A stretch of 64,000 bases of DNA, from contig JAZKBU010000005.1 of NCBI GenBank assembly GCA_040388375.1, positions 62,001 through 126,000 on the forward strand. Direction: 5' to 3'. This DNA comes from Bacteroidota bacterium (GTDB lineage Bacteria; Bacteroidota; Bacteroidia; UKL13-3). The first letter of the stretch is position 1; each line of letters begins with the position of its first letter. Below, one piece after another: positions 94 through 62,573 of the stretch. The position numbers and the translations under genes were made by a program. The notes below the pieces were generated by a model. The model did not search any database and was not told the DNA's origin. It saw only the letters and a list, made by a program, of their open reading frames with translations.

Positions 94-347
94 GAAAGGG
101 GATTAATTGGACAAATGTATAATTACTTCACTTATATACCAGTAAATTTTATAGCAATAGGTTTTTTATATTGATAGATAGCTTGTTTTGTTATGAAAAG
201 GGGTGGGGAAGGGGGCTCGAACTCAAAGGTCAATTTGAGCGGAGTTGCTTTCCGTGGTAATGTCTTCTGAGCAAGGGCTGTGTTTGGTGTTGTTGAAGGC
301 CGTATTGTTTTCTATAATTACTACCAACTTTATGCTCGCGGACTTAT
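94..347. other. Non-coding stretch upstream of metF
   Basis: No convincing gene. Overlapping frames on both strands around 223-496 are open but run through the repeat at 348-454 and resemble no family. The part near 93-180 presumably holds the metF promoter, although no clear TAnnTTTG box was found. Confidence 0.5.
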
Positions 348-462
348 GCAGTTGCCAATTACGGAACGAAAATCTGTCAACCAAGATAAAAAATAATGCA
401 AAACTAAATGCTGAATTTAAGAGTGATAACGGCAACTGCGCAAGATTGCTGTTAGCTGCTGG
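348..462 (-). repeat. attC-like repeat, copy 1
   Basis: About 105 nt closely resembling 24862-24967 by eye. It contains a perfect 9-nt inverted pair, GCAGTTGCC (348-356) and GGCAACTGC (431-439), and a small hairpin, TAACGGCAA (427-435) with TTGCTGTTA (446-454). The core GTTAGCTGCT (451-460) supplies the Ser-Ser-stop end of the neighbouring minus-strand gene, exactly as a second copy does at 25849-25858. A stop codon inside the recombination core is usual for integron gene cassettes. The attC assignment is inferred. Confidence 0.55.
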
Positions 463-1084
463 TTTTTCTTTCAAATTTCAAGTCTGCCGCTTTTAATAAT
501 TGTAAAAAACGTCCAATTTCTGTTGATTCTACTGCGGTATTACTAGGGTCATTTTGTATGGTTGTAATTATAGTTTCTAATGTAAGAAATTCAATTTTTA
601 CTTTAAATCCTTCTTCTCCGCTCAAACTGTCAAGAAAAAGTTGGTTGTTACAAAAGTCATTTACATATCTGCTATTGTTTAATTTTGTCACAGCTATAAT
701 ATAGTTAAATTGTTTTTGTTTTGTCTCTTCGAATATTTTGTTTCTAAACGCTTTTGACCAAATAGGGTCAGTCAATTCACGAAAAGATTTCCAAACTTCT
801 CGCCCACTTACTTTTGTCGAGTGCTTCTCAGGGTCAGATAACCAATGCAAATGTTTCTCAACATTAAAACCACCCTGCCAAGATTTGCAAGTAACAACAT
901 TAGTTGTCTTTTTTTGTAAGTTGACCGAGAGAATGTCAATGTCTGAGTGAACACTATATTTGTTTTTTTCTTCTTTTTTTATTGAGCTTTGGTCAGGCCG
1001 ATATTTTACATTGTGTTTTGTAAAAGTTGCAACTTGTCTTAAAAAGTAGCCGTCAATTAATTGTTCTAATATGTCTTCTTTCAT
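452..1084 (-). CDS. Restriction-endonuclease-fold-like protein
   Basis: 210 residues, no signal peptide or membrane segment. Around residues 43-72 the pattern SDIDILSVN, a strand TNVVTCKSW and a glycine pair resembles the PD-(D/E)xK nuclease core: aspartates D48/D50, then a hydrophobic strand ending in xCK (K67). The usual Glu/Gln two residues before the lysine is a Thr here, so nuclease activity is uncertain. Proteins of this shape occur in defence and mobile contexts. The gene ends Ser-Ser-stop inside a cassette-like repeat and starts just after a large imperfect palindrome, so it may be a mobile cassette. The fold is inferred from motif spacing; a general unknown protein is the alternative. 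Confidence 0.5.
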   Translation of the reverse strand: MKEDILEQLIDGYFLRQVATFTKHNVKYRPDQSSIKKEEKNKYSVHSDIDILSVNLQKKTTNVVTCKSWQGGFNVEKHLHWLSDPEKHSTKVSGREVWKSFRELTDPIWSKAFRNKIFEETKQKQFNYIIAVTKLNNSRYVNDFCNNQLFLDSLSGEEGFKVKIEFLTLETIITTIQNDPSNTAVESTEIGRFLQLLKAADLKFERKTSS

Positions 1085-1116
1085 TTTTCGTGTCGTGTTT
1101 AAACTTGGAGCTGCAT

Positions 1117-1184
1117 CTACCCGAAGGGTGGGATTTATACCACAAAACTATCTTTGGAACACGAAACCCCACCTTTTTGGTAGG
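1117..1184. repeat. Imperfect palindrome with two paired box sets
   Basis: Outer boxes CTACCC (1117-1122) and GGTAGG (1179-1184) pair, and inner boxes GGGTGGG (1126-1132) and CCCCACC (1167-1173) pair, separated by unequal spacers (GAA on one side, TTTTT on the other). Two paired boxes with asymmetric spacers is the layout of a folded attC site, although these boxes lack GTTRRRY cores. It lies between two minus-strand genes. It may instead be a transcribed structure or a REP-type repeat. Confidence 0.45.
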
Positions 1185-1215
1185 CGCTGTTGCGCGTTCG
1201 TATTACTTTCACCTG

Positions 1216-1500
1216 CTAAGACTGTCGTTCCATTGATGCAGAAATATCATTTAAAATGTCTGACATTTCTTGAAGGCCTATTCTGTCTCTTTGTATGCAT
1301 GCACGAATTAACAATGTCATATCTTCAATTGGAATTTCGCTCGAACCATGAGGACTGAATTTGCCCTCTTCATTATAAACTGCTCTTCTAATAGATTCAG
1401 TTTGCTCGTCTACTGGATTATTTTCTGTCCAAGTAGAAACTCCTATTTGAATTTCGTGATTATCAAGACTAGGATGTGGAAATGCTTCTCTTACTTTCAT
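1216..1500 (-). CDS. Small conserved-looking protein of unknown function
   Basis: 94 residues, hydrophilic, no signal or membrane segment. The composition is protein-like and the frame has a proper ATG at 1500 after an AT-rich leader. The C-terminal half (from about residue 58) looks helical and contains two cysteines or none depending on alignment; only one Cys is clear. I do not recognise a family. It lies in the same orientation as the nuclease-fold-like gene and is separated from it by the palindrome at 1117-1184, so the two may be separate cassette-like units rather than one operon. A chance open frame is possible but less likely given the codon quality. Confidence 0.45.
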   Translation of the reverse strand: MKVREAFPHPSLDNHEIQIGVSTWTENNPVDEQTESIRRAVYNEEGKFSPHGSSEIPIEDMTLLIRACIQRDRIGLQEMSDILNDISASMERQS

Positions 1501-12317: not shown

Positions 12318-14147
12318 TTATTCAACTAACCATTTCTGGTTAAATGATTTGTCGTTTTCCTGAAACTTAATAATGTATAAGCCTTTTGCAAATTCGCTTG
12401 CATTTAAGTCGAAAGTATGTTCGCCACTACTTAATTCATCGTTGCAAATATTTTTAACCAATTTACCGCTGATATCAAAAATACTGATGTTAATGTTTGA
12501 TTGGCTTTGAGTAGTAAATGATAATTTTGAAACGCTGTTACTAGGGTTTGGATTTAAGCTGAATTTAATATTTTCTTTTAATCCGTCAGCAACACCTACA
12601 GGAGTGCTAATAGAAACATTGTCAATATAAGTATTGTTGCCTCTGCGAGCTTGTAATTCAAATCTAACCCTGAAGTTAGTGTATGTTTTATAAGCAGCTA
12701 AATCTAAAGTAATGGTTTTCCATTGGCTGCTGGTAGGTACAAACTCAGTTGCAGTTACATCAGCTGTTTCTATATCTGTTACGGTGTATGTTTTAGCTAA
12801 TATTTCAGTTCTTCCGTAATTGTCAGAAACGTATACGTTCAATTGATCTGTTGAACCGGCTACTCTTCTGGCATGTGCCACTTTAAAAGTTAAAGTAGGG
12901 TTGGTTAACTGGCTAATATTATAGTTTCTGGTATGGAAAGCATCGCGTGTATTCAATGTGCTGGTAGCGCCATTTTTAAAAGTCGATATGCTCATACAGT
13001 TGTTGTCATCAAATCCAACCGAATTGTTTACTGCCCAACCATTGACAGGGTTATTAAAGTTTTCAATAAACCAAGTAGTAGTAGTTTCCTGGAAACTTGT
13101 ATTAAATGGTGCTGTAACTGTAGCCGGGGTTAATACTTTGTAGGTTCCGTCAGCATTTAAACCTGCGGCTGATATGTTAGACGCAGAATAAATAGTTGAA
13201 CGGTACTGACTCAGTAAGCTTTTCATACGTGTTACTTGTCCGGCAGTGTACATATTCATACAAGTACCGTCAGCATAATCCATATAGTTCTGTACATTAT
13301 CAGGTAAATCAGGTACATCGTTGGTACATGAGTTTTGACTGGTAGGGCAACCGCTTGTAGAGGTAGCAACCGGTGGCGTATCGCAAACCTGATCTCCGGA
13401 ACCTGCACAATTAGAAGCCGTTCCGCCTACGCAACCACCTTGGAAAGTATGGTATAAACCACACCAGTGGCCTGCTTCGTGCGTTACTGTTCTGCCCCAT
13501 TGGGTTTGTTGAAATTGGTAACCAATGGCTCCAATATTATCTGCTCTTACTATTATACCATCAGTACTGGCTGAACCTCCGTTAGGAAATTGCGCATAAC
13601 CCAGAGTTGTTCCTGCAGTGCTACCCGATGCTGCAATGGTATTAACAACCCAGATATTAAAATATTTTTTGCTATCCCAATAGCTTAATGCTTTGGCTGT
13701 ATTGTCTGCATTTACTGTTTTAGCTGCATTTAAAATTCTGTTTACCCCATCCATTGGGTTTCCGTTAGGGTCATATTGAGCCAATCTGAATTCAATTTCT
13801 GCATCAGCGGCACGTGTATTTGTCGATGCGCCCCCATTGGTTCCAACCATTTTTCTATAGTCTTCATTTAGAACCCTGATACAATCGTTTATTTGTGCTT
13901 GAGTAATGTTTTCTAAACCACTATTGTGTATGATATGAAAAACAACCGGTATATAAATAACAGTGCCTTTTTTGCCCATTTGTAACTTAGCCGCATAATC
14001 GCGGGCAATGGCATTGGCTTTTTCTTCCTCAATTTTAGCCTGAGGATTTTGTTTTACATACTCTTCGTATAATTCATCTGTTGCACAACGTTGTGCAAAT
14101 GTGCTGATACTTGAAAGGAGTAGTAGGGAACATAAAAATCTCTTCAT
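12318..14147 (-). CDS. Secreted M43 (pappalysin-like) zinc metalloprotease with T9SS sorting domain
   Basis: 609 residues. Signal peptide (residues 1-19, ending FAQ), then a propeptide-like segment. The zinc site HEAGHWCGLYH (223-233) fits HExxHxxGxxH, and the Met-turn NYMDY is at 287-291; six or more cysteines lie between, as in M43 enzymes. Residues about 360-515 form a jelly-roll-like domain. The last 80 residues (from LNPNPS) are a type A T9SS sorting domain with DISGKLVKN and the ending KGLYIIKF. It is thus exported through T9SS and attached to or released from the surface; it probably digests extracellular proteins. Terminator hairpin directly follows. Confidence 0.92.
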   Translation of the reverse strand: MKRFLCSLLLLSSISTFAQRCATDELYEEYVKQNPQAKIEEEKANAIARDYAAKLQMGKKGTVIYIPVVFHIIHNSGLENITQAQINDCIRVLNEDYRKMVGTNGGASTNTRAADAEIEFRLAQYDPNGNPMDGVNRILNAAKTVNADNTAKALSYWDSKKYFNIWVVNTIAASGSTAGTTLGYAQFPNGGSASTDGIIVRADNIGAIGYQFQQTQWGRTVTHEAGHWCGLYHTFQGGCVGGTASNCAGSGDQVCDTPPVATSTSGCPTSQNSCTNDVPDLPDNVQNYMDYADGTCMNMYTAGQVTRMKSLLSQYRSTIYSASNISAAGLNADGTYKVLTPATVTAPFNTSFQETTTTWFIENFNNPVNGWAVNNSVGFDDNNCMSISTFKNGATSTLNTRDAFHTRNYNISQLTNPTLTFKVAHARRVAGSTDQLNVYVSDNYGRTEILAKTYTVTDIETADVTATEFVPTSSQWKTITLDLAAYKTYTNFRVRFELQARRGNNTYIDNVSISTPVGVADGLKENIKFSLNPNPSNSVSKLSFTTQSQSNINISIFDISGKLVKNICNDELSSGEHTFDLNASEFAKGLYIIKFQENDKSFNQKWLVE

Positions 14148-14235: not shown

Positions 14236-15312
14236 CTAGCTATAAACTTTATTTAATAAATAATAATCAACCAGTACCAAAGCGGCCATTGCCTCTACAA
14301 TAGGAACGGCTCGGGGCACTACACAAGGGTCGTGGCGACCTTGGGCTGTAAATTGGGTGTTTTCAAAATGCGTGTTTACCGTATTTTGGTTTTGTTTAAT
14401 GGTAGAAACAGGTTTAAAAGCCGCTTTAAAAACTATATCCATTCCATTGCTTATGCCACCTTGAATACCTCCGCTGTGGTTACTTTGGGTGGTGAGCTGC
14501 CCGTCTTTCATTTCAAAAATATCGTTGTGCTCACTGCCTTTCATGGTAACGCTGTCAAAGCCATTTCCTAATTCAAACCCTTTGCAGGCATTAATGCTTA
14601 AAATAGCTTTACCTAGTTCAGCATGCAGTTTATTAAAAACAGGCTCACCTAAACCAACAGGTACTTTTTTGCAAACACAGGTAATAACTCCACCAACCGA
14701 ATCACCTTCCTGTTTCACCTGTTCTATCAAGGCTATCATTTTATCAGCCGTGTTGTTATCCGGGCATCGAACTATATTTGATTCAATAGCAGCAAAATCA
14801 AGGGCGTCAATATCCTTATCCAGTTTAATGGTATGGATTTGCGAAACAAAAGTGTGTATTTCAACACCAATGTTTTGAAGTATCATTTTGGCAACAGAAC
14901 CCGCCAATACACGCGCTACGGTTTCTCTGGCCGATTGACGGCCTCCACCTCTTACATCCCTGATACCATATTTTTGTTGGTGGGTATAATCGGCATGTGA
15001 GGGTCTGTATATATCTTTTAAATGCTCGTAGTCTTTCGATTCGTGGTTTTTGTTTTTAACTATAATAGTTAAAGGGGTACCTGTAGTTACTCCATCCAAT
15101 AAACCACTTAATACTTCAAAGCTTTCGTCTTCGTTTCTTTCCGTAGTTATTTTCGATTGGCCGGGTTTGCGTTTGTTTAAATCAGCCTGCACCAAATCGA
15201 AATCAAATTTTATTTTTGGTAAAACGCCATCAATAATTACACCCAATGCAGGGCCGTGGCTTTCGCCAAAAGTTGTTATTTTAAATAGATTACCAAAAGT
15301 ATTACCTGCCAT
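14236..15312 (-). CDS. aroC: Chorismate synthase
   Basis: 358 residues, normal length. Converts 5-enolpyruvylshikimate 3-phosphate to chorismate, the last common step in aromatic amino acid synthesis, with reduced FMN. Signatures in order: [14 protein letters not shown] near the N-terminus, RRKPGQS-type region (here [12 protein letters not shown]), [34 protein letters not shown] and [16 protein letters not shown]. All three PROSITE-type signatures are intact. Monocistronic here, no other aro genes nearby. Confidence 0.97.
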
Positions 15313-15757
15313 ACGTAAGCAAAAGTATGTTTTTATTGTAAATAATGCTTGTTAGTTGATAGGCGTTCAGTTTTGCAGAGATATTACTTTTGTAATAGTA
15401 CCTGCCAGTTGGAGAACAATGCAATTAAACCTTACGAAATATATTTTGAATTAAAGTTACAGTAAAATCGGGTATGACTTTTTGTTCTTTCTTACTTTTT
15501 TCATTGACAAAAAAGTAAGCAAAAAGTCTAGACAAAAAAATGCTTCCCCGCACAAGGCCTGATGCACGGCCCGCTTTTTTGTCGGGCTAACACACGCCTA
15601 CTAATTATAATAGTCAACACTCTTGTAAGGTACGAAGCAATAAAGTTTAATTCATTACCAACAATATAGCAATCCAACAATTTAACAGTCTAACCAATAA
15701 TTCAAAGCAACCAAAAACCAATTTAAATATTATTTTGCGCCACTTTAATAAAAGAAA
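15313..15757. other. 445-nt gap with a strong hairpin repeat
   Basis: No gene found. A hairpin CTTACTTTTTT / AAAAAAGTAAG (15491-15519, 7-nt loop) is followed by a further AAAAAGTC and a short GC-rich segment with CCCGC and GCGGGC-like pieces (15544-15585). This looks like a dispersed Bacteroidota repeat rather than a gene terminator, because no gene ends near it. Confidence 0.5.
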
Positions 15758-17502: not shown

Positions 17503-18063
17503 TTATTTTACTCTTTCTGAGTAAGACTCTGTACGTAAATCAACTTTTACTTTTTCGCCTTGGTTTACAAACAATGGAACCATTATTTCTGCACCGGTAT
17601 CAATAGTAGCTGGTTTAAGCGTGTTAGTAGCAGTATCGCCTTTTACACCCGGCTCGGTATAAGTAATTTCGTAAATGCCAAAGTTAGGGGGCTCTACACC
17701 AATTACGGTATCGCTTTCAAAAGCTACTTTTAAAATCATTTCTTCTTTTAAAAATTTAGCGGTAGTACCCACGGTTGAATCTTCTACATAAATTTGTTCA
17801 AAGTTTTCTGGGTCCATTAATACCAGGCTGCTTCCGTCTTTATATAAAAATTGCATTTCGCGGTGTTCAACACGCATCATTTCTACACTTTCGCCTGCAC
17901 GCATGCGGTGCTCAACTTGTTTACCTGTTTTTACGTTACGCAATACTACCTGATAAAATGCTCTTAAATTACCCGGTGTGCGGTGCTGATATTCCATTAC
18001 CTGGCATAATTCGCCATTGAATTTTATAAAACAGCCTTTAAATAAATCGCCTGTACTTGCCAT
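17503..18063 (-). CDS. efp: Elongation factor P
   Basis: 186 residues, three-domain KOW-OB-OB layout. EF-P enters the ribosome E site and rescues stalling at polyproline. Domain I residues 8-40 include the tip loop HRTPGNLRAF, where the residue equivalent to E. coli Lys34 is Asn32. So lysylation, rhamnosylation or aminopentanolation cannot occur at that position. The end TYTEPGVKGDTATNTLKPAT and the final VDLRTESYSERVK are typical EF-P. An unmodifiable tip occurs in a Bacteroidota subfamily, to my knowledge. Monocistronic. Confidence 0.95.
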   Translation of the reverse strand: MASTGDLFKGCFIKFNGELCQVMEYQHRTPGNLRAFYQVVLRNVKTGKQVEHRMRAGESVEMMRVEHREMQFLYKDGSSLVLMDPENFEQIYVEDSTVGTTAKFLKEEMILKVAFESDTVIGVEPPNFGIYEITYTEPGVKGDTATNTLKPATIDTGAEIMVPLFVNQGEKVKVDLRTESYSERVK

Positions 18064-24803: not shown

Positions 24804-24861
24804 TTCTTGTCTGTATGGTTTGTTGTCTTAGTATTGGGAGTCACGTTCTCTGCCAAGAACT

Positions 24862-24967
24862 GTTGCCATTTGTGGAGCATTTGTTTGTCAAGCAAAGATA
24901 AAAATAAAAGCGGAATGAAATGCTGAAATTTAAGGAGGATAACGGCAATTGTGCGAGTTTGCTGTTA
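24862..24967 (-). repeat. attC-like repeat, copy 2
   Basis: About 105 nt alignable with 348-454, ending TAACGGCAA (24940-24948) and TTGCTGTTA (24959-24967) around a 10-nt loop, and sharing AGATAAAAA and AATGCTGAA stretches. It lies right after the stop of the minus-strand gene at 24984, in the same relative position as copy 1. Inferred recombination or transcription-ending element. Confidence 0.55.
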
Positions 24968-24983
24968 ATGGTAGTTTACTGGT

Positions 24984-25709
24984 TTATCCAAATTCCCATA
25001 GAACACTTTTTCCTGCCTTAATTGCTGAGTCCAAAAAGTCGTAACATTTCTTAAATTCATCTTTGAACTCTTCGGCCTTGGTTATTGATTTGGTAAAATA
25101 TCTTTTGTTAGCGATTTCTACTTCGGGTTTTACTTCTACGAAAAAGTCAACTTTTCCATAATCTTCATTGTAACTTTTCACATGAATTTTATTTTTGACA
25201 TTATCATAATTGTCATAGAAAAATAAATCACCCTCAAGGTGGGCTTTAATACCTTCAATTTGAACGTAGCCTATTTCATCTTTTAGTTCTGAATCCGTAT
25301 ACACAAAATGAACTAACGGTAATTCTGAACTTTTATCTGTCAAATATTTTTCAACTCGTTTAAGAGCGTTTTTCAAACTCTCAGGGTTTCTTTCTCTATC
25401 ATTTACTTTTTGGCTTCTTACAACCAGTTCATCTCTCATTTTATTTATTTCATCTACTGTAATTGTACCTTGTAGTGCTTTATACATTATGATTGGAAGT
25501 TTGGCCTTTTCTAAAAAGGTAGCATCTCGTTTTTTGCCAAGAACTATTTCACCATAGGAATTTGGTGCAACTATGGCAGATTCATCTTTGGAGAGAAAGT
25601 CACTGAACTTTATATACCCTTCAAAAATAATTTCATCCTTGAACTTTCTTGATATATAGGGGCTTTCGATGCTTTCATCATCAACATATAAACTTATATT
25701 CTGTCCCAT
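24984..25709 (-). CDS. Unknown cytoplasmic protein, cassette-like gene
   Basis: 241 residues from the ATG at 25709. An upstream in-frame ATG at 25823 would run the reading frame through the GCTAAC repeat and give a low-quality leader, so it is rejected. The ATG is 16 nt after GTTAGC, the spacing seen in integron cassettes. Residues about 1-60 are beta-rich (QNISLYVDDES, IIFEGYIKF), the middle is helical and basic (VNDRERNPESLKNALKRVEKYLT), and the end is a beta strand plus helix (KVDFFVEVKP, EFKKCYDFLDSAIKAGKSVLWEFG). No family recognised. No signal or membrane segment. Confidence 0.6.
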   Translation of the reverse strand: MGQNISLYVDDESIESPYISRKFKDEIIFEGYIKFSDFLSKDESAIVAPNSYGEIVLGKKRDATFLEKAKLPIIMYKALQGTITVDEINKMRDELVVRSQKVNDRERNPESLKNALKRVEKYLTDKSSELPLVHFVYTDSELKDEIGYVQIEGIKAHLEGDLFFYDNYDNVKNKIHVKSYNEDYGKVDFFVEVKPEVEIANKRYFTKSITKAEEFKDEFKKCYDFLDSAIKAGKSVLWEFG

Positions 25710-25723
25710 ATTGTTCTTTATTA

Positions 25724-25858
25724 CCGCTAACGTTCCCGCGCCTGCCACTGGTGGCGATTGCGAGGAATAATTTATCAAGCTAAGATATACAAAATACGTA
25801 AACGAAAAACTCGAACTTACCATATTGGCTCCATTGCGGCAATATCTTGTTAGCTGCT
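25724..25858 (-). repeat. Best attC-like site
   Basis: On the minus strand AGCAGCTAAC (25858-25849) opens it and GTTAGCGG closes it (25731-25724). The outer cores GCTAAC and GTTAGC pair exactly; inside them TTGCCGC and GCGGGAA pair 6 of 7. It contains the stop codon of the gene to its right and lies 16 nt upstream of the start of the gene to its left. Order, core and stop-codon position fit an attC; the core differs from GTTRRRY by one base. Confidence 0.55.
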
Positions 25859-26863
25859 GTAATTTTCAATTATTATTTCTTCTGTCATTTTCAATTCAAA
25901 TATTTTCTGGTATTCATAAGCTTTGCTCTCCATCTCAATAAGTCTTGCCATGTCTATTAAATTGTTTGAAGAGTCAGGATTCTCCCAACTGAAAAATGTC
26001 TTGTATAATGTTTTGAAATTTTCAAAATCATCATTTTCATAGTCAGATATTCTACAGTCAAACAAACTAAATAGCACTTGAAGAGCATATGAAATTTCCC
26101 TTTTTTCTTTCAGTTGTTTAATTTCATTATAAAGTTCCGAAAATTTGATATTCAAATTTTTAAGCCCCTCATAAGTAAATCTAACTGTTCCTGTAGAACC
26201 AGAATAAGTTTCCCAATTTGGATTGAATAAAGCTTTCTTGAAATATTTTTTCCCTTCTTCACCACATAATGAAAAACCCAATATTATACCTGCATTACAA
26301 TCAGTTGAGGCAATTTTGTCACCTGATTCGTATAATTTTTCAAGCATTTGTTTTTTGTCTGACAATTTACAAACCAATGCAGGAATAAATTCCGGGAACA
26401 GATTTTTATTTAAACAGTTCTCAATATTTGCTTTGATAGTGTCTTTGTATTCGTTACAATCATAGTTTAACAACCCTAAAATTGAAGCTTTTTGAAATTG
26501 GTAGTCAGACTCAATATTTGAAAATGCATAGTTAAAAAGAATCTTCTTTATTGGTTCATAATTTAATTCAGCCAGTAATGTTAATATATCAGGGTCGGCA
26601 TTTTCATTTAACTTTTCGTCAGCTATAACTATATTAAAGATTTTATCTGCAAATGTTTTATCACCAAACTTTCTAAACAGAATAAGTAAATAACTATGGG
26701 CAAAATCGAAATGTTGCTTTAAATAACTATCCAACAACAGACTTGCATCTTCTTTTGAACCAAGTTTAAATATTGCCTCCACATATGATTGAACTAGTGA
26801 AGTCTCTCTTTTGTCCTTGTCAACTTTTAAATATTCTATAAGTTCGGCTGTTGATTTTATCAT
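25850..26863 (-). CDS. Unknown HEAT-like helical protein, cassette-like gene
   Basis: 337 residues, almost wholly helical with short repeats of about 35-40 residues, e.g. LLDSYLKQHFDFAHSYLLIL, KIFNIVIADEKL, and LLAELNYEPIKKILFNYAF, suggestive of HEAT-type solenoid folding. No catalytic motif seen. It ends Asn-Tyr-Ser-Ser-stop with the last codons provided by AGCAGCTAACA, as does the gene at 452. Inverted 10-nt cores, GTTAGCTGCT at 25849 and AGCAGCTAAC at 26885, flank the gene closely. I infer a mobile cassette; function unknown. Confidence 0.6.
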   Translation of the reverse strand: MIKSTAELIEYLKVDKDKRETSLVQSYVEAIFKLGSKEDASLLLDSYLKQHFDFAHSYLLILFRKFGDKTFADKIFNIVIADEKLNENADPDILTLLAELNYEPIKKILFNYAFSNIESDYQFQKASILGLLNYDCNEYKDTIKANIENCLNKNLFPEFIPALVCKLSDKKQMLEKLYESGDKIASTDCNAGIILGFSLCGEEGKKYFKKALFNPNWETYSGSTGTVRFTYEGLKNLNIKFSELYNEIKQLKEKREISYALQVLFSLFDCRISDYENDDFENFKTLYKTFFSWENPDSSNNLIDMARLIEMESKAYEYQKIFELKMTEEIIIENYSS

Positions 26864-26884
26864 TTGTAGAGTCTGTTATTATAT

Positions 26885-26894
26885 AGCAGCTAAC
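26885..26894 (-). repeat. Recombination-core-like site upstream of the HEAT-like gene
   Basis: AGCAGCTAAC (+ strand), i.e. GTTAGCTGCT on minus, 21 nt ahead of the gene's ATG. It is the exact complement-orientation partner of the core at 25849-25858. Confidence 0.5.
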
Positions 26895-26928
26895 TACCAT
26901 ATGCAAGAACTTTCTTCCTTATAAGTTT

Positions 26929-26959
26929 CCTAGTATCATATCTCTTGGTTAATACTAGG
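26929..26959. terminator. Possible hairpin downstream of the PKD protein gene
   Basis: CCTAGTAT and ATACTAGG form an 8-bp stem with a 15-nt loop, about 105 nt beyond the stop at 27066. No strong T run follows, so a terminator role is tentative. Confidence 0.35.
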
Positions 26960-27065
26960 ATTCTTTCGCAGAATAGTTAGTGCTGGGTATTGCTCATTTT
27001 TTTATTTTATCAAAAGGGCTAAATTTTACCCAATTGTTCCTGCCTCTCCAACTCTAGCTAATTTC

Positions 27066-60175: not shown

Positions 60176-60223
60176 TTTTGTCTGTTGGTATTTAACTGTT
60201 CACTTGCTCTTTGCAAAAGTAAT

Positions 60224-61339
60224 TTATTCTGAAAAACGGGTAAAGGTTTTTCCATCGTAACGGCATAAGTCAGTATTCCTGCTGCCTATCCAAAGGTTAC
60301 CTGCAGTATCTTCCACAATGGAGTATACACCATTGTGACACAAACCCTCTTGTCTTGTAAACCGCGTAAATGATTTGCCATCGTAACGCCATAGTCCACC
60401 GGGCTCATTAAGCTCTCCACTGCCTAACTCAGTTCCAAACCAAAGGTTTCCTGCTTTATCTTCAAAGGCCACATTAATAGAGCCATTTTGAATGCCTCCT
60501 TTTGCTGTAAAGTTGATAAAATTTTTGCCATCAAAACGACATACACCGTAGTGTCTGCTTACAATGAGCAAGGTGCCATTTTTATCCTCCATGATAGAAC
60601 GAACCCATCCCTCTCCATAAGGTTTGTATTGGGTTATTGATTTTCCGTCATAACAGCAAATACCCTCATTGGCAAGTACCCAGGAGCCAAACCAAATATT
60701 TCCTGCTTTATCTTCAAAAATACATTGTGTCCATTTGAGAGAAACGTTGTTTGTATTTAGTATGTTTTTGTTATCTAAAAAGCGGGTAAATGTTTTTCCA
60801 TCAAAGCAATAAATACCATCAGTGGTGCCTAACCAAATTTTACCGCTTCTATCCTGCATCATACTCCATAGCTCATTTTTTGTTGATGGGGTATTATGGA
60901 AAGAATTATTAGGTAGAGAGCTGCTTCCAACAGAGCCGGGTATTGATATGTTTGTAAATTTTTTTCCATCAAAACGGGATATTGCCTCTTTTGTGCCGAA
61001 CCAGATGTCGCCAGATATATCCTCTAGTATGAAAAAGATACCCGTTCCACACAAGCCGTCCTTTTTGGTAAACTGCGTAAATACTTTTCCATCATATCGG
61101 TAAACACCTTCGCCTGTGGTACCAAACCAAATATTACCCGATTTGTCCCTTAAACTACAACCTATCTGCTGGTATTCGTTTGAGCCTTGAGTTTTGCTCA
61201 GCTTTGTATGTTTGCTGGTGAACGATAGTTGTTCCGAAACAGTTTCATTTGATTGTTCAGTTATTGTCTGCCCGTTACATGATGTAAAAAATACCAATAC
61301 AAACAGTAAAGAGAAGATGGAGTTTTTAAATTTAGTCAT
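60224..61339 (-). CDS. Propeller lipoprotein, paralogue 1
   Basis: 371 residues. Lipobox FFTSC at about 17-21 marks an outer-membrane-facing lipoprotein. About seven repeats of the two-component-regulator propeller unit: DKSGNIWFGTTGEGVYRYDGK, DISGDIWFGTKEAISRFDGK, DRSGKIWLGTTDGIYCFDGK, DKAGNIWFGSWVLANEG, etc. These blades usually form the sensor part of hybrid histidine kinases; here there is no kinase, so it is a free ligand-binding protein. It is a close paralogue of the next gene and lies in tandem with it. Confidence 0.88.
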   Translation of the reverse strand: MTKFKNSIFSLLFVLVFFTSCNGQTITEQSNETVSEQLSFTSKHTKLSKTQGSNEYQQIGCSLRDKSGNIWFGTTGEGVYRYDGKVFTQFTKKDGLCGTGIFFILEDISGDIWFGTKEAISRFDGKKFTNISIPGSVGSSSLPNNSFHNTPSTKNELWSMMQDRSGKIWLGTTDGIYCFDGKTFTRFLDNKNILNTNNVSLKWTQCIFEDKAGNIWFGSWVLANEGICCYDGKSITQYKPYGEGWVRSIMEDKNGTLLIVSRHYGVCRFDGKNFINFTAKGGIQNGSINVAFEDKAGNLWFGTELGSGELNEPGGLWRYDGKSFTRFTRQEGLCHNGVYSIVEDTAGNLWIGSRNTDLCRYDGKTFTRFSE

Positions 61340-61487
61340 TGTTATAGTTACTTTATTACTGTTGTTTTTAGGTTGTTTTCAAGGTTACATACTAACACCC
61401 ATTTTTGCCGCTAACTTATTTATAAGAATGATTTTATCATCTTGTTTCCCGCATATCAACAAGCACAATATTTTCAACTCGTTTTCA

Positions 61488-62573
61488 TTATTCTGAAAAT
61501 GTTTCAAATGTTTGGCCGTTGTATCGATACAGGCCGCAGTTTCGTGTTCCAATCCAAATTTTGCCGTTTTTGTCTTCAAACATATTCCAAACGGAATTTT
61601 TCCCCATACCGTCTTTAGTTGAAAAGTTTTTAAAAGTATTTCCATCGTAACGCCATAAACCACCAATGCTTTCTATCGAGTTTACTTTTTCACCTCCGTC
61701 AAACCAAATATTTCCGGTATTGTCCTTAAAAATAGCAGAACCAATATTTACTTTTTCAGTAAAAATTTTAAATGTTTGGCCATCGTAACGGAATACTCCG
61801 TTGTGTCTTCCACTAAACCATATATGTCCGTTTTTATCTTCTACTATATATCTTATCCATCCGTCACCATTGGGTTTAGCACCGGTTACAGATTTTCCGT
61901 CAAAACGCAAAACCCCTTCTTCTGCAATGGGTCCTGAACCAAGCCATATAATACCCTTACTATCTTGTAAAATAGACTGAATCCATTTAAGTTGAAGATT
62001 TTGTTTGTTTGTAATGTTAGTCTTATCTAAAAACCGGCTGAAAGATTTTCCATCATAGCAATACAAATCTTGTGTAGTACCAAACCAAATAATGCCGCTT
62101 TTATCCTGCATAATAGCCCATACCGCATTGCCTGATTGTAATGTTGTTGTTCCCAATGCACCGGGGCTAGATAGCATCATCGGAATTTTTGAAATTGTTT
62201 TGCCATCGTATCTACTCAATCCATTGTCCGTACCAAACCAAATATTGCCCTCTTTATCTTCTAAAATGGACCAGACTTTATTATCACTTAAACCATCTTT
62301 TTTTGTAAACTGGGTAAATTCTTTTCCATCGTATTTATAAACACCTTCACCAGTTGTACCAAACCAAATATTACCATCTTTGTCCTGCAGGCTACAATGT
62401 ACGTTTTGATGTTCGGTTGTGCCTTGTGTTTTGGTTAGCTTTATATGGTTGCTGGTAAACGATAGTTGTTGCGCAACCGTTTCATTTGATTGTTCTGTGG
62501 TTGTTTGTCCGTTACACGATGATGTAAAAAACACAAACAGTAAAAATAAGAGGAAGTTTTTAAATGGAGTCAT
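61488..62573 (-). CDS. Propeller lipoprotein, paralogue 2
   Basis: 361 residues, same order as paralogue 1: lipobox FTSSC, linker TTEQSNETVAQQL, then seven blades such as DKDGNIWFGTTGEGVYKYDGK and DKEGNIWFGTDNGLSRYDGK. Opening residues match paralogue 1 almost exactly while the blades diverge, which indicates tandem duplication followed by divergence. The blade order is kept. The 148-nt gap between them has no gene. Confidence 0.88.
   Translation of the reverse strand: MTPFKNFLLFLLFVFFTSSCNGQTTTEQSNETVAQQLSFTSNHIKLTKTQGTTEHQNVHCSLQDKDGNIWFGTTGEGVYKYDGKEFTQFTKKDGLSDNKVWSILEDKEGNIWFGTDNGLSRYDGKTISKIPMMLSSPGALGTTTLQSGNAVWAIMQDKSGIIWFGTTQDLYCYDGKSFSRFLDKTNITNKQNLQLKWIQSILQDSKGIIWLGSGPIAEEGVLRFDGKSVTGAKPNGDGWIRYIVEDKNGHIWFSGRHNGVFRYDGQTFKIFTEKVNIGSAIFKDNTGNIWFDGGEKVNSIESIGGLWRYDGNTFKNFSTKDGMGKNSVWNMFEDKNGKIWIGTRNCGLYRYNGQTFETFSE

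Follow-up and report, generated by a model that had tools for sequence, protein, structure and literature searches.

Gene cassettes in a Bacteroidota genome suggest an integron form with a recombinase lacking the IntI-specific insertion

A stretch of 64,000 nucleotides from a Bacteroidota bacterium of the lineage UKL13-3 (assembly GCA_040388375.1, contig JAZKBU010000005.1, positions 62,001 to 126,000; the whole stretch is hereafter called the window) looks to contain two small clusters of integron gene cassettes, partly decayed, with the integrase encoded elsewhere in the genome. We consider it highly probable (about 0.9) that these clusters belong to an integron form common among the relatives of this bacterium, in which a tyrosine recombinase devoid of the insertion specific to the integron integrase IntI lies near an attI-like site. 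In the mechanism that we propose, transcription of this recombinase would run towards the attI-like site, located about 100 bp beyond the stop codon of the gene; cassettes in circular form would be inserted there, cut at their GTT core, and the array would grow downstream of the recombinase, in its direction. As a reading of the sequences, the cassette mechanism is firmly supported by the junctions between cassettes and by their attC-like sites, described below.

Results

Cassette junctions and shared cassettes

In integrons, the bases after an opening GTT belong to the cassette that they open; their partner is the R'' box at the far end of this cassette, not the R'' box of the site that contains them. 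Among 47 pairs of neighbouring sites, counted after 13 partial or core-less sites had been left out, all four variable bases matched according to this cassette rule in 34, in comparison with a mean of 3.3 and a maximum of 12 in 20,000 shuffles; the control comparisons gave 5 matches out of 68 within the same site and 3 out of 46 against the previous R'' box. A second count was made in 11 stretches from six other genomes, preselected for matches to a covariance model of the site family, which also served to locate the sites. Here 41 of the 55 pairs were perfect (shuffles: mean 3.2, maximum 13; within site: 3/64), once 7 of 62 pairs without a readable core had been set aside and two of the 73 model matches omitted, one in a stretch with a canonical IntI (L199) and one cut by the stretch end. 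In the window, the cassette at 25849-26894 (GTTAGCT...AGCTAAC) follows the rule: the GTTAGCT at 26888-26894, which opens this cassette, is the exact complement of the closing AGCTAAC at 25849-25855. Likewise, the AGCT kept in the site at 1109-1195 is the one that the rule predicts from the AGCTAAC at 451-457.

Near-identical cassettes were also found in different arrays. In Bacteroidetes bacterium UKL13-3, the first cassette of array c, located at attI (L044:6298), is the same as an internal cassette of array a (L088:6827), with 99.4% identity over 989 nt that begins at GTT and breaks again after GTTA. Between genera, an array of G026 (g7) contains the cassette that genome G001 (genus g1) has beside its attI, with 92.9% identity over 1313 nt; this identity begins at GTT as well, and its end appears, by eye, to break after GTTA. 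The cassette rule, together with near-identical cassettes that start at GTT in different arrays, therefore points to integron recombination. The cassettes seem to behave as circles cut at the GTT core; the cut would lie within GTT, whose constancy prevents the exact phosphodiester from being resolved, and cassette insertion may be continuing today.

A family of attC-like sites

A DNA search of the window's own genome with a 181-bp element of the window returned only the element itself, plus two short weak matches. Individual sites have diverged too far for such a search to work; the family was reached through a short arm motif. This motif occurs at three places in the window's genome (at about 431 and about 24944 of the window, and at 160030 of contig C1), in 7 of 58 genomes comprising this one and its relatives, and in four named records, including the complete genome CP012155 (Bacteroidetes bacterium UKL13-3), whose locus L028 is identical to genome G029 over 8000 bases; the exact motif had no match in viral contigs. 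From 12 stretches taken around motif matches, around the recombinases of the window's genome and at the left side of the window, and 39 further stretches around recombinase copies and one other place, an iterated profile yielded 70 distinct full sites and 13 partial or core-less ones in 52 stretches (window included; 627,563 bases). When the same stretches were reversed, the best match of the sequence-only profile had an expect value (E) of 0.22.

Alignment of 66 of the 70 sites, whose median length is 132 bp and whose centre is partly conserved, gave 16 predicted base pairs, 15 of them with compensatory changes. Paired cells made up 91.8% of the alignment vs 60.5% after shuffling, and the arm covariation score was 0.737, in comparison with 0.204 for shuffles and 0.054-0.117 with partners slid by 1-3 columns, a test that favours the structure over its slid versions since this structure was derived from the same alignment. 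Two of the five covariation measures, double-change pairs and further pair types, were not above the shuffles; of the 500 shuffles, 147 and 110, respectively, reached the same level. The arms of the sites change in sequence yet stay complementary, so that what is conserved is structure and not sequence. The loop beside the core is asymmetric: one side has a lone A, the other five bases, for the most part AAAAC, GGAAC or AAACC. In known attC sites, the bottom strand folds better than the top strand. Folding of the 40 best-scoring sites under 140 nt with DNA energies resulted in z < -2 for the bottom strand in 33 and for the top strand in 23.

The R boxes of canonical attC sites have the consensus GTTRRRY / RYYYAAC. 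Here GTTRRRY fits 3 of 68 R' boxes, RYYYAAC fits 7 of 70 sites, and both boxes fit in 0 of 70; what the original prediction, made from the letters of the window, had taken as a one-base deviation from GTTRRRY is instead the norm of another site family. Six sites of UKL13-3 (in L043, L044, L089 and L090) start with GTTCAAC and not with NNNTAAC, and violate the cassette rule; near-identical blocks stop within 1-2 nt of some of these boxes, and another mobile element may therefore use that end. In another record, L207 (NZ_CP041688.1), a 172-bp unit devoid of open reading frames (ORFs) was observed twice in the stretch examined, core to core (13149-13321 and 15244-15416). It consists of GTTGGGA...TCCCAAC followed by a long palindrome, its first bases recur at 17625 and 20694, and it is perhaps an ORF-less mini-cassette.

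Arrays, attI-like sites and cassette content

The arrays of UKL13-3 consist of a recombinase gene followed by genes on the same strand, separated by sites of about 130 bp. In the 16 stretches that bear a recombinase, 46 of 46 sites lie downstream of it and on its strand; the way in which the stretches were cut, longer on the downstream than on the upstream side, biases the position but leaves the strand unaffected. Between sites, cassettes under 3.5 kb (n=40) had a median of 880 nt, and in 38 of them the longest ORF has the same orientation as the cassette. The arrays are thus tandem cassettes, each a gene with its closing site, in one direction, as in integrons.

Past the stop codon of the recombinase, at +66 to +188 nt and mostly at +84 to +104, lies an attI-like stretch that ends roughly in TATAANCNA|GTTA. 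In 18 loci the bases at its GTT and the R'' box of the first site were both readable; they match in 15 of these and mismatch in the remaining three. Contigs that carry a recombinase end within 400 bp downstream of it in 14 of 41 copies and within 400 bp upstream in none (0/41); the distances for the one-contig genome G029 are rough placeholders that leave the counts unaffected. Five of the 14 downstream ends (G013, G014, G017, G030 and G048) fall at the core itself, as expected if first cassettes differ within the population. In the window's genome (G000), about 12 kb with many genes in the same direction separate an attI from the first profile-detected site (G000:C1:160001-172505), as if this were one very long cassette; the GTTATAG of that attI matches the CTATAAC of the site.

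Most cassette proteins had no Pfam match: 0 of 4 matched in the window, and 6 of 18 in other arrays at E 0.001, two of these below the curated cut-off. A cassette-borne KAP ATPase (L044:8204-9601) matched the candidate defence family PDC-S20 of PADLOC with E 2e-166, and none of the 9 other cassette proteins scanned matched PADLOC.

The recombinase

The genome of the window contains eight tyrosine recombinases that match PF00589. Two of them, on another contig (G000:C1:172505-173539 and G000:C1:232326-233360), match the integron-integrase model TIGR02249 below its cut-off and in two pieces; in recombinases of this type, the matched parts of the model are about positions 2-179 and 238-315. The protein of the former aligns to residues 8-183 and 243-318 of the solved integron integrase 2a3v. 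Both pass the cut-off of NF040815 ('site-specific tyrosine recombinase/integron integrase'). The best solved relative was 4a8e, named XerC-like in its file, and the second 5hxy (XerA); separate XerD- and XerC-like genes are present in the genome. The original prediction had described the cluster as lacking a visible integrase, which holds for the surroundings of both window clusters and not for the genome, given the two copies on contig C1. As to the search for IntI that it had advised, no canonical IntI above the TIGR02249 cut-off was found in the 58 genomes (0/58), and the two recombinases of contig C1 are not canonical IntI because they miss the IntI-specific insertion.

We aligned 43 such domain-less proteins, including distant ones without arrays, with 29 canonical IntI from the wider phylum and 3 Xer proteins; the fragmentary L090, L108 and L117 and the oversized IntI frame L162 were left out of alignment and tree. 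All 29 canonical IntI have an insertion of some 41 residues that none of the 43 aligned recombinases has, and the spacing from KGKKDR to HxLRHS is 64-65 residues in all 43, 106 in the 29 canonical IntI and 69-74 in the three Xer proteins. To judge from its place in the alignment to 2a3v, the missing stretch would be the one that holds the I2 part of IntI. The catalytic R, R, H and Y are kept in 43 of 43 proteins and the first H in 42. Many domain-less recombinases carry 70 or more extra N-terminal residues, for which no Pfam match was found in the four proteins scanned. In the tree, canonical IntI form one clade (support 100/100, stem 2.08) that is joined with the domain-less proteins, 33 of which constitute a main clade (96/99); the three Xer rows stand apart as a separate clade (100/99). 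Support for the branching order around IntI is weak (91/66, 86/75), the domain-less proteins as a whole do not form a single clade here, and long branches drew a warning from the program.

Distribution, plasmids and tet(X3)

Sites were detected at E 0.01 in 54 of the 58 genomes. The original prediction had made its case depend on further copies in the same genome, and these are there: 25 matches in the window's own genome, likewise at E 0.01. Among 296 genomes of the phylum as defined by GTDB, 130 had sites at E 1e-5 and 84 a canonical IntI, one of these 84 belonging to the class of the window. In 9 stretches around canonical IntI, chosen by the integrase gene and known from the integrase alone and not from attC content, the site model gave one weak match (E 0.0033), so the two site families look distinct there. 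Three of the 11 stretches preselected for the second count of the cassette rule hold a domain-less recombinase, with sites downstream on its strand in each.

Two Chryseobacterium plasmids carry the recombinase, with 63.7% identity. In one of them, five sites with E below 1e-4 lie downstream of the gene; the first junctions follow the rule (GTTATAC...GTATAAC and GTTACCT...AGGTAAC), and two further sites have no readable R'' box. The other plasmid has an attI-like end and no match to the site model. The presence of recombinase and sites on the first of these plasmids means that the system can be plasmid-borne.

On plasmid p80-1-2-tetX3 of Acinetobacter indicus (L208, NZ_CP041297.1, 6043-8173), the recombinase gene immediately preceding tet(X3) consists of the 3' part of a domain-less relative. 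It is separated from tet(X3) by a GTTATGT core, and tet(X3) is followed directly by the first part of a site, with a nhmmer E of 6e-8 and only 9 bits in the covariance model. The R'' box of this site mismatches GTTATGT and therefore speaks against a simple intact cassette. The arrangement xerD-tet(X3)-resolvase was already known (PMC7758954), and the word 'integron' is absent from the portion of that article available to us.

Sites and genes of the window

The covariance model matched four places in the window, each just after an ORF and all on the minus strand, which is also the strand of every other site and gene described in this paragraph and the next. The attC-like sites at 322..457 (77.1 bits; R'' AGCTAAC, R' end degenerate) and 25725..25855 (131 bp, 67.8 bits; both ends intact, R'' AGCTAAC and R' GTTAGCG) have scores fixed by construction, because both were among the 66 sequences used to build the model. 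The other two were not: an attC-like site with a decayed R' core, GTGACTC, and the R'' box CATTAAC at 24838..24970 (E 1e-8), and a shortened, decayed attC-like site at 1109..1195 that has lost its core and kept AGCT (E 2.6e-4), these E-values being rough according to the tool itself. Since the R' ends of three sites (322-457, 1109-1195 and 24838-24970) are damaged, the clusters look partly worn. A putative divergent attC-like site was placed by eye at about 26888..26982 (fold z -2.5 for the top and -1.7 for the bottom strand), where the covariance model gave no match.

The two genes that the original prediction had noticed for their common ending in Ser-Ser-stop through AGCAGCTAACA are a cassette gene of 337 aa at 25850..26863 (...NYSS*), whose stop codon lies within the R'' box, and a second one of 210 aa at 452..1084 (...KTSS*), outside the interval that the prediction covered. 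The element with GCTAAC/GTTAGC ends that it placed between two genes corresponds to the site at 25725-25855, and the start codon that it saw 16 nt past GTTAGC is the ATG of the cassette gene at 24984..25709, whose first base is 25709. None of these three genes had a match in Pfam or PADLOC (0 matches in each), the last of them scanned as a translation from the codon following the ATG. A 94-aa ORF at 1216..1500, just before the short site at 1109-1195, is a possible cassette gene, with no Pfam match. The sites, the arrays and the cassette rule bear out the proposal that these are gene cassettes of an integron-derived or CALIN-like type.

The original prediction had also proposed a comparison of relatives for gain and loss of genes. 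Of 64 genomes of the family, only the one that contains the window has the 337-aa gene; a decarboxylase beside the window cluster is present in 1 of 10 genomes of the genus. An RNA element was considered and rejected, no Rfam family having been matched in the window. Outside the clusters, two adjacent stretches at 60200-62550 of the window resemble near duplicates by eye and contain repeated units, which we take to be propeller-like.

Discussion

The data presented here place the window clusters close to known integrons in several respects. Like canonical integrons, the arrays have gene cassettes with a closing site, GTT junctions, an attI-like site by the recombinase, imperfect hairpin sites and genes in the same direction; an attI site next to the integrase gene is a feature that both share, not found here for several distant recombinases. 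On the other hand, the insertion that marks IntI is missing in 43 of 43 proteins, which do not have the additional domain; the R boxes are mostly not GTTRRRY/RYYYAAC; the core-side loop has one A vs five bases; and the recombinase is transcribed towards attI. This last arrangement is shared by the chromosomal integrons of Treponema, where intI is transcribed towards attI, in the direction of the cassettes, and which are described with integron integrases (PMC3607928), unlike the recombinases reported here. A CALIN is defined as at least two attC sites less than 4 kb apart (PMC9668308); by our own covariance model, the pairs 24838-24970 with 25725-25855 and 322-457 with 1109-1195 are so spaced. 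Like a CALIN, the window clusters have sites and cassette genes and no recombinase beside them, and unlike it, their sites belong to another family. Also close are NF040815, whose cut-off the two recombinases of the genome pass, and the 'Integron-like subgroup' of tyrosine recombinases (Smyshlyaev 2021, PMC8138268); in the portion of that study available to us, the insertion is called essential for integron function, and no cassettes, attI or attC are described for the insertion-less members. XerC/XerD and XerA are of the same tyrosine recombinase family, but the cassette arrays and the attI-like site set the proteins described here apart, and Xer, represented by three rows, is a separate clade in the tree, so that they do not group with XerC/XerD.

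Several explanations other than an integron with an insertion-less recombinase have to be weighed. It is unlikely, in our opinion, that the cassettes are real and their sites recombined as double-stranded DNA in the manner of Xer, the hairpin arms being only two recombinase-binding arms. The recombinase lacks the part of IntI into which the bases protruding from a folded attC dock (PMC7790495), and its motif spacing is closer to Xer (64-65 residues vs 69-74), as this explanation would have it; however, the arms vary widely while pairing is kept in 91.8% of cells, which fits recognition of structure rather than of sequence, and the bottom strand folds better (33/40 vs 23/40 with z < -2). The sites are likely to act as folded single strands. 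We regard as very improbable that the window holds remnants of canonical integrons of the ordinary kind, their IntI lost or located elsewhere, with the nearby recombinase as a bystander. Canonical IntI does occur in the wider GTDB phylum (84/296 genomes), and some carriers also have these sites on other contigs. Nevertheless, this candidate was rejected, since no canonical IntI above the cut-off was found in the 58 genomes; besides, only one of the 84 carriers is in the window's class, the site model gave one weak match in 9 canonical IntI neighbourhoods, and attI-like cores about 100 bp from the stop codon of this recombinase agree with the first cassette at 15 of 18 loci.

Least probable of all, with hardly any weight in our judgement, is that the repeats are a miniature transposable element or a transcription terminator between genes and that their cassette look is accidental. 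Inverted-repeat ends, a median length of 132 bp, an intergenic position and a partly conserved centre would suit such elements, but the miniature transposon was rejected as contradicted by the cassette rule, and the single direction per stretch, the shared cassettes starting at GTT, the adjacency to a recombinase and an attI-like site, and the lack of any Rfam family in the window speak against this account as well. Judged by its position and by the attI-like site, the domain-less recombinase very likely drives cassette insertion.

A number of observations weigh against an integron with an insertion-less recombinase. The rule is broken in 13 of 47 and 14 of 55 neighbour pairs, some of which probably hide a missed site; the window site at 24838, whose R'' CATTAAC mismatches the preceding GTTAGCG, and the GTTCAAC sites of UKL13-3 do not fit it. 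Sites are found in 54 of 58 genomes and the recombinase, at E 1e-50, in only 34. The recombinases beside arrays are not one clade: L106, which has four sites whose junctions match, is placed outside the main clade and closer to IntI, a weakly supported position. For the distant recombinases L101-L103 and L109, no attI-like end was found by pattern and no site at E 0.001 nearby. Furthermore, deletion of the I2 part of IntI1 is reported to abolish function (PMC7790495), and the system is known here from sequence alone.

The additional domain of IntI serves both to define integrons and to search for them, and the detection of integrases relies on this IntI-specific domain (PMC9668308, PMC2426708, PMC8352920). 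In Bacteroidetes proper, IntegronFinder 2.0 reported an In0 and then the complete integron of Salinibacter ruber M1 (PMC9024848). According to PMC7790495, cassette capture requires the I2 part, which confers single-strand recombination and occurs in no other protein; the same authors point to a lack of intermediates. The part is presented as necessary and unique also in PMC4792948, where the origin of the domain is presented as a chicken-egg paradox, either the domain or the attC sites having come first. In the available portion of the UKL13-3 genome paper (PMC5248499), integron, integrase and recombinase are never mentioned, and no description of cassette arrays with a domain-less recombinase was recognised in the literature searched, a search outside which preprints and most subscription papers lay. 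This kind of integron is widespread and apparently undescribed.

On balance, we lean towards a wider interpretation: an integron lineage widespread in Bacteroidia and on plasmids, capturing cassettes through folded single-strand sites, whose recombinases would never have had the I2 part or additional domain. As to how integrons arose, it would represent either the intermediate that has been missing or a solution reached independently; it would be invisible to tools that require the domain, and would have left a remnant that carries tet(X3) in Acinetobacter. If true, this would offer a possible route by which tet(X) left Bacteroidetes. A working cassette system with hairpin sites but without the I2 region would make the question of integron origin testable, since in that case the sites could have come first, and it would add to Bacteroidetes a gene-shuffling platform with a gene pool mostly of unknown function.

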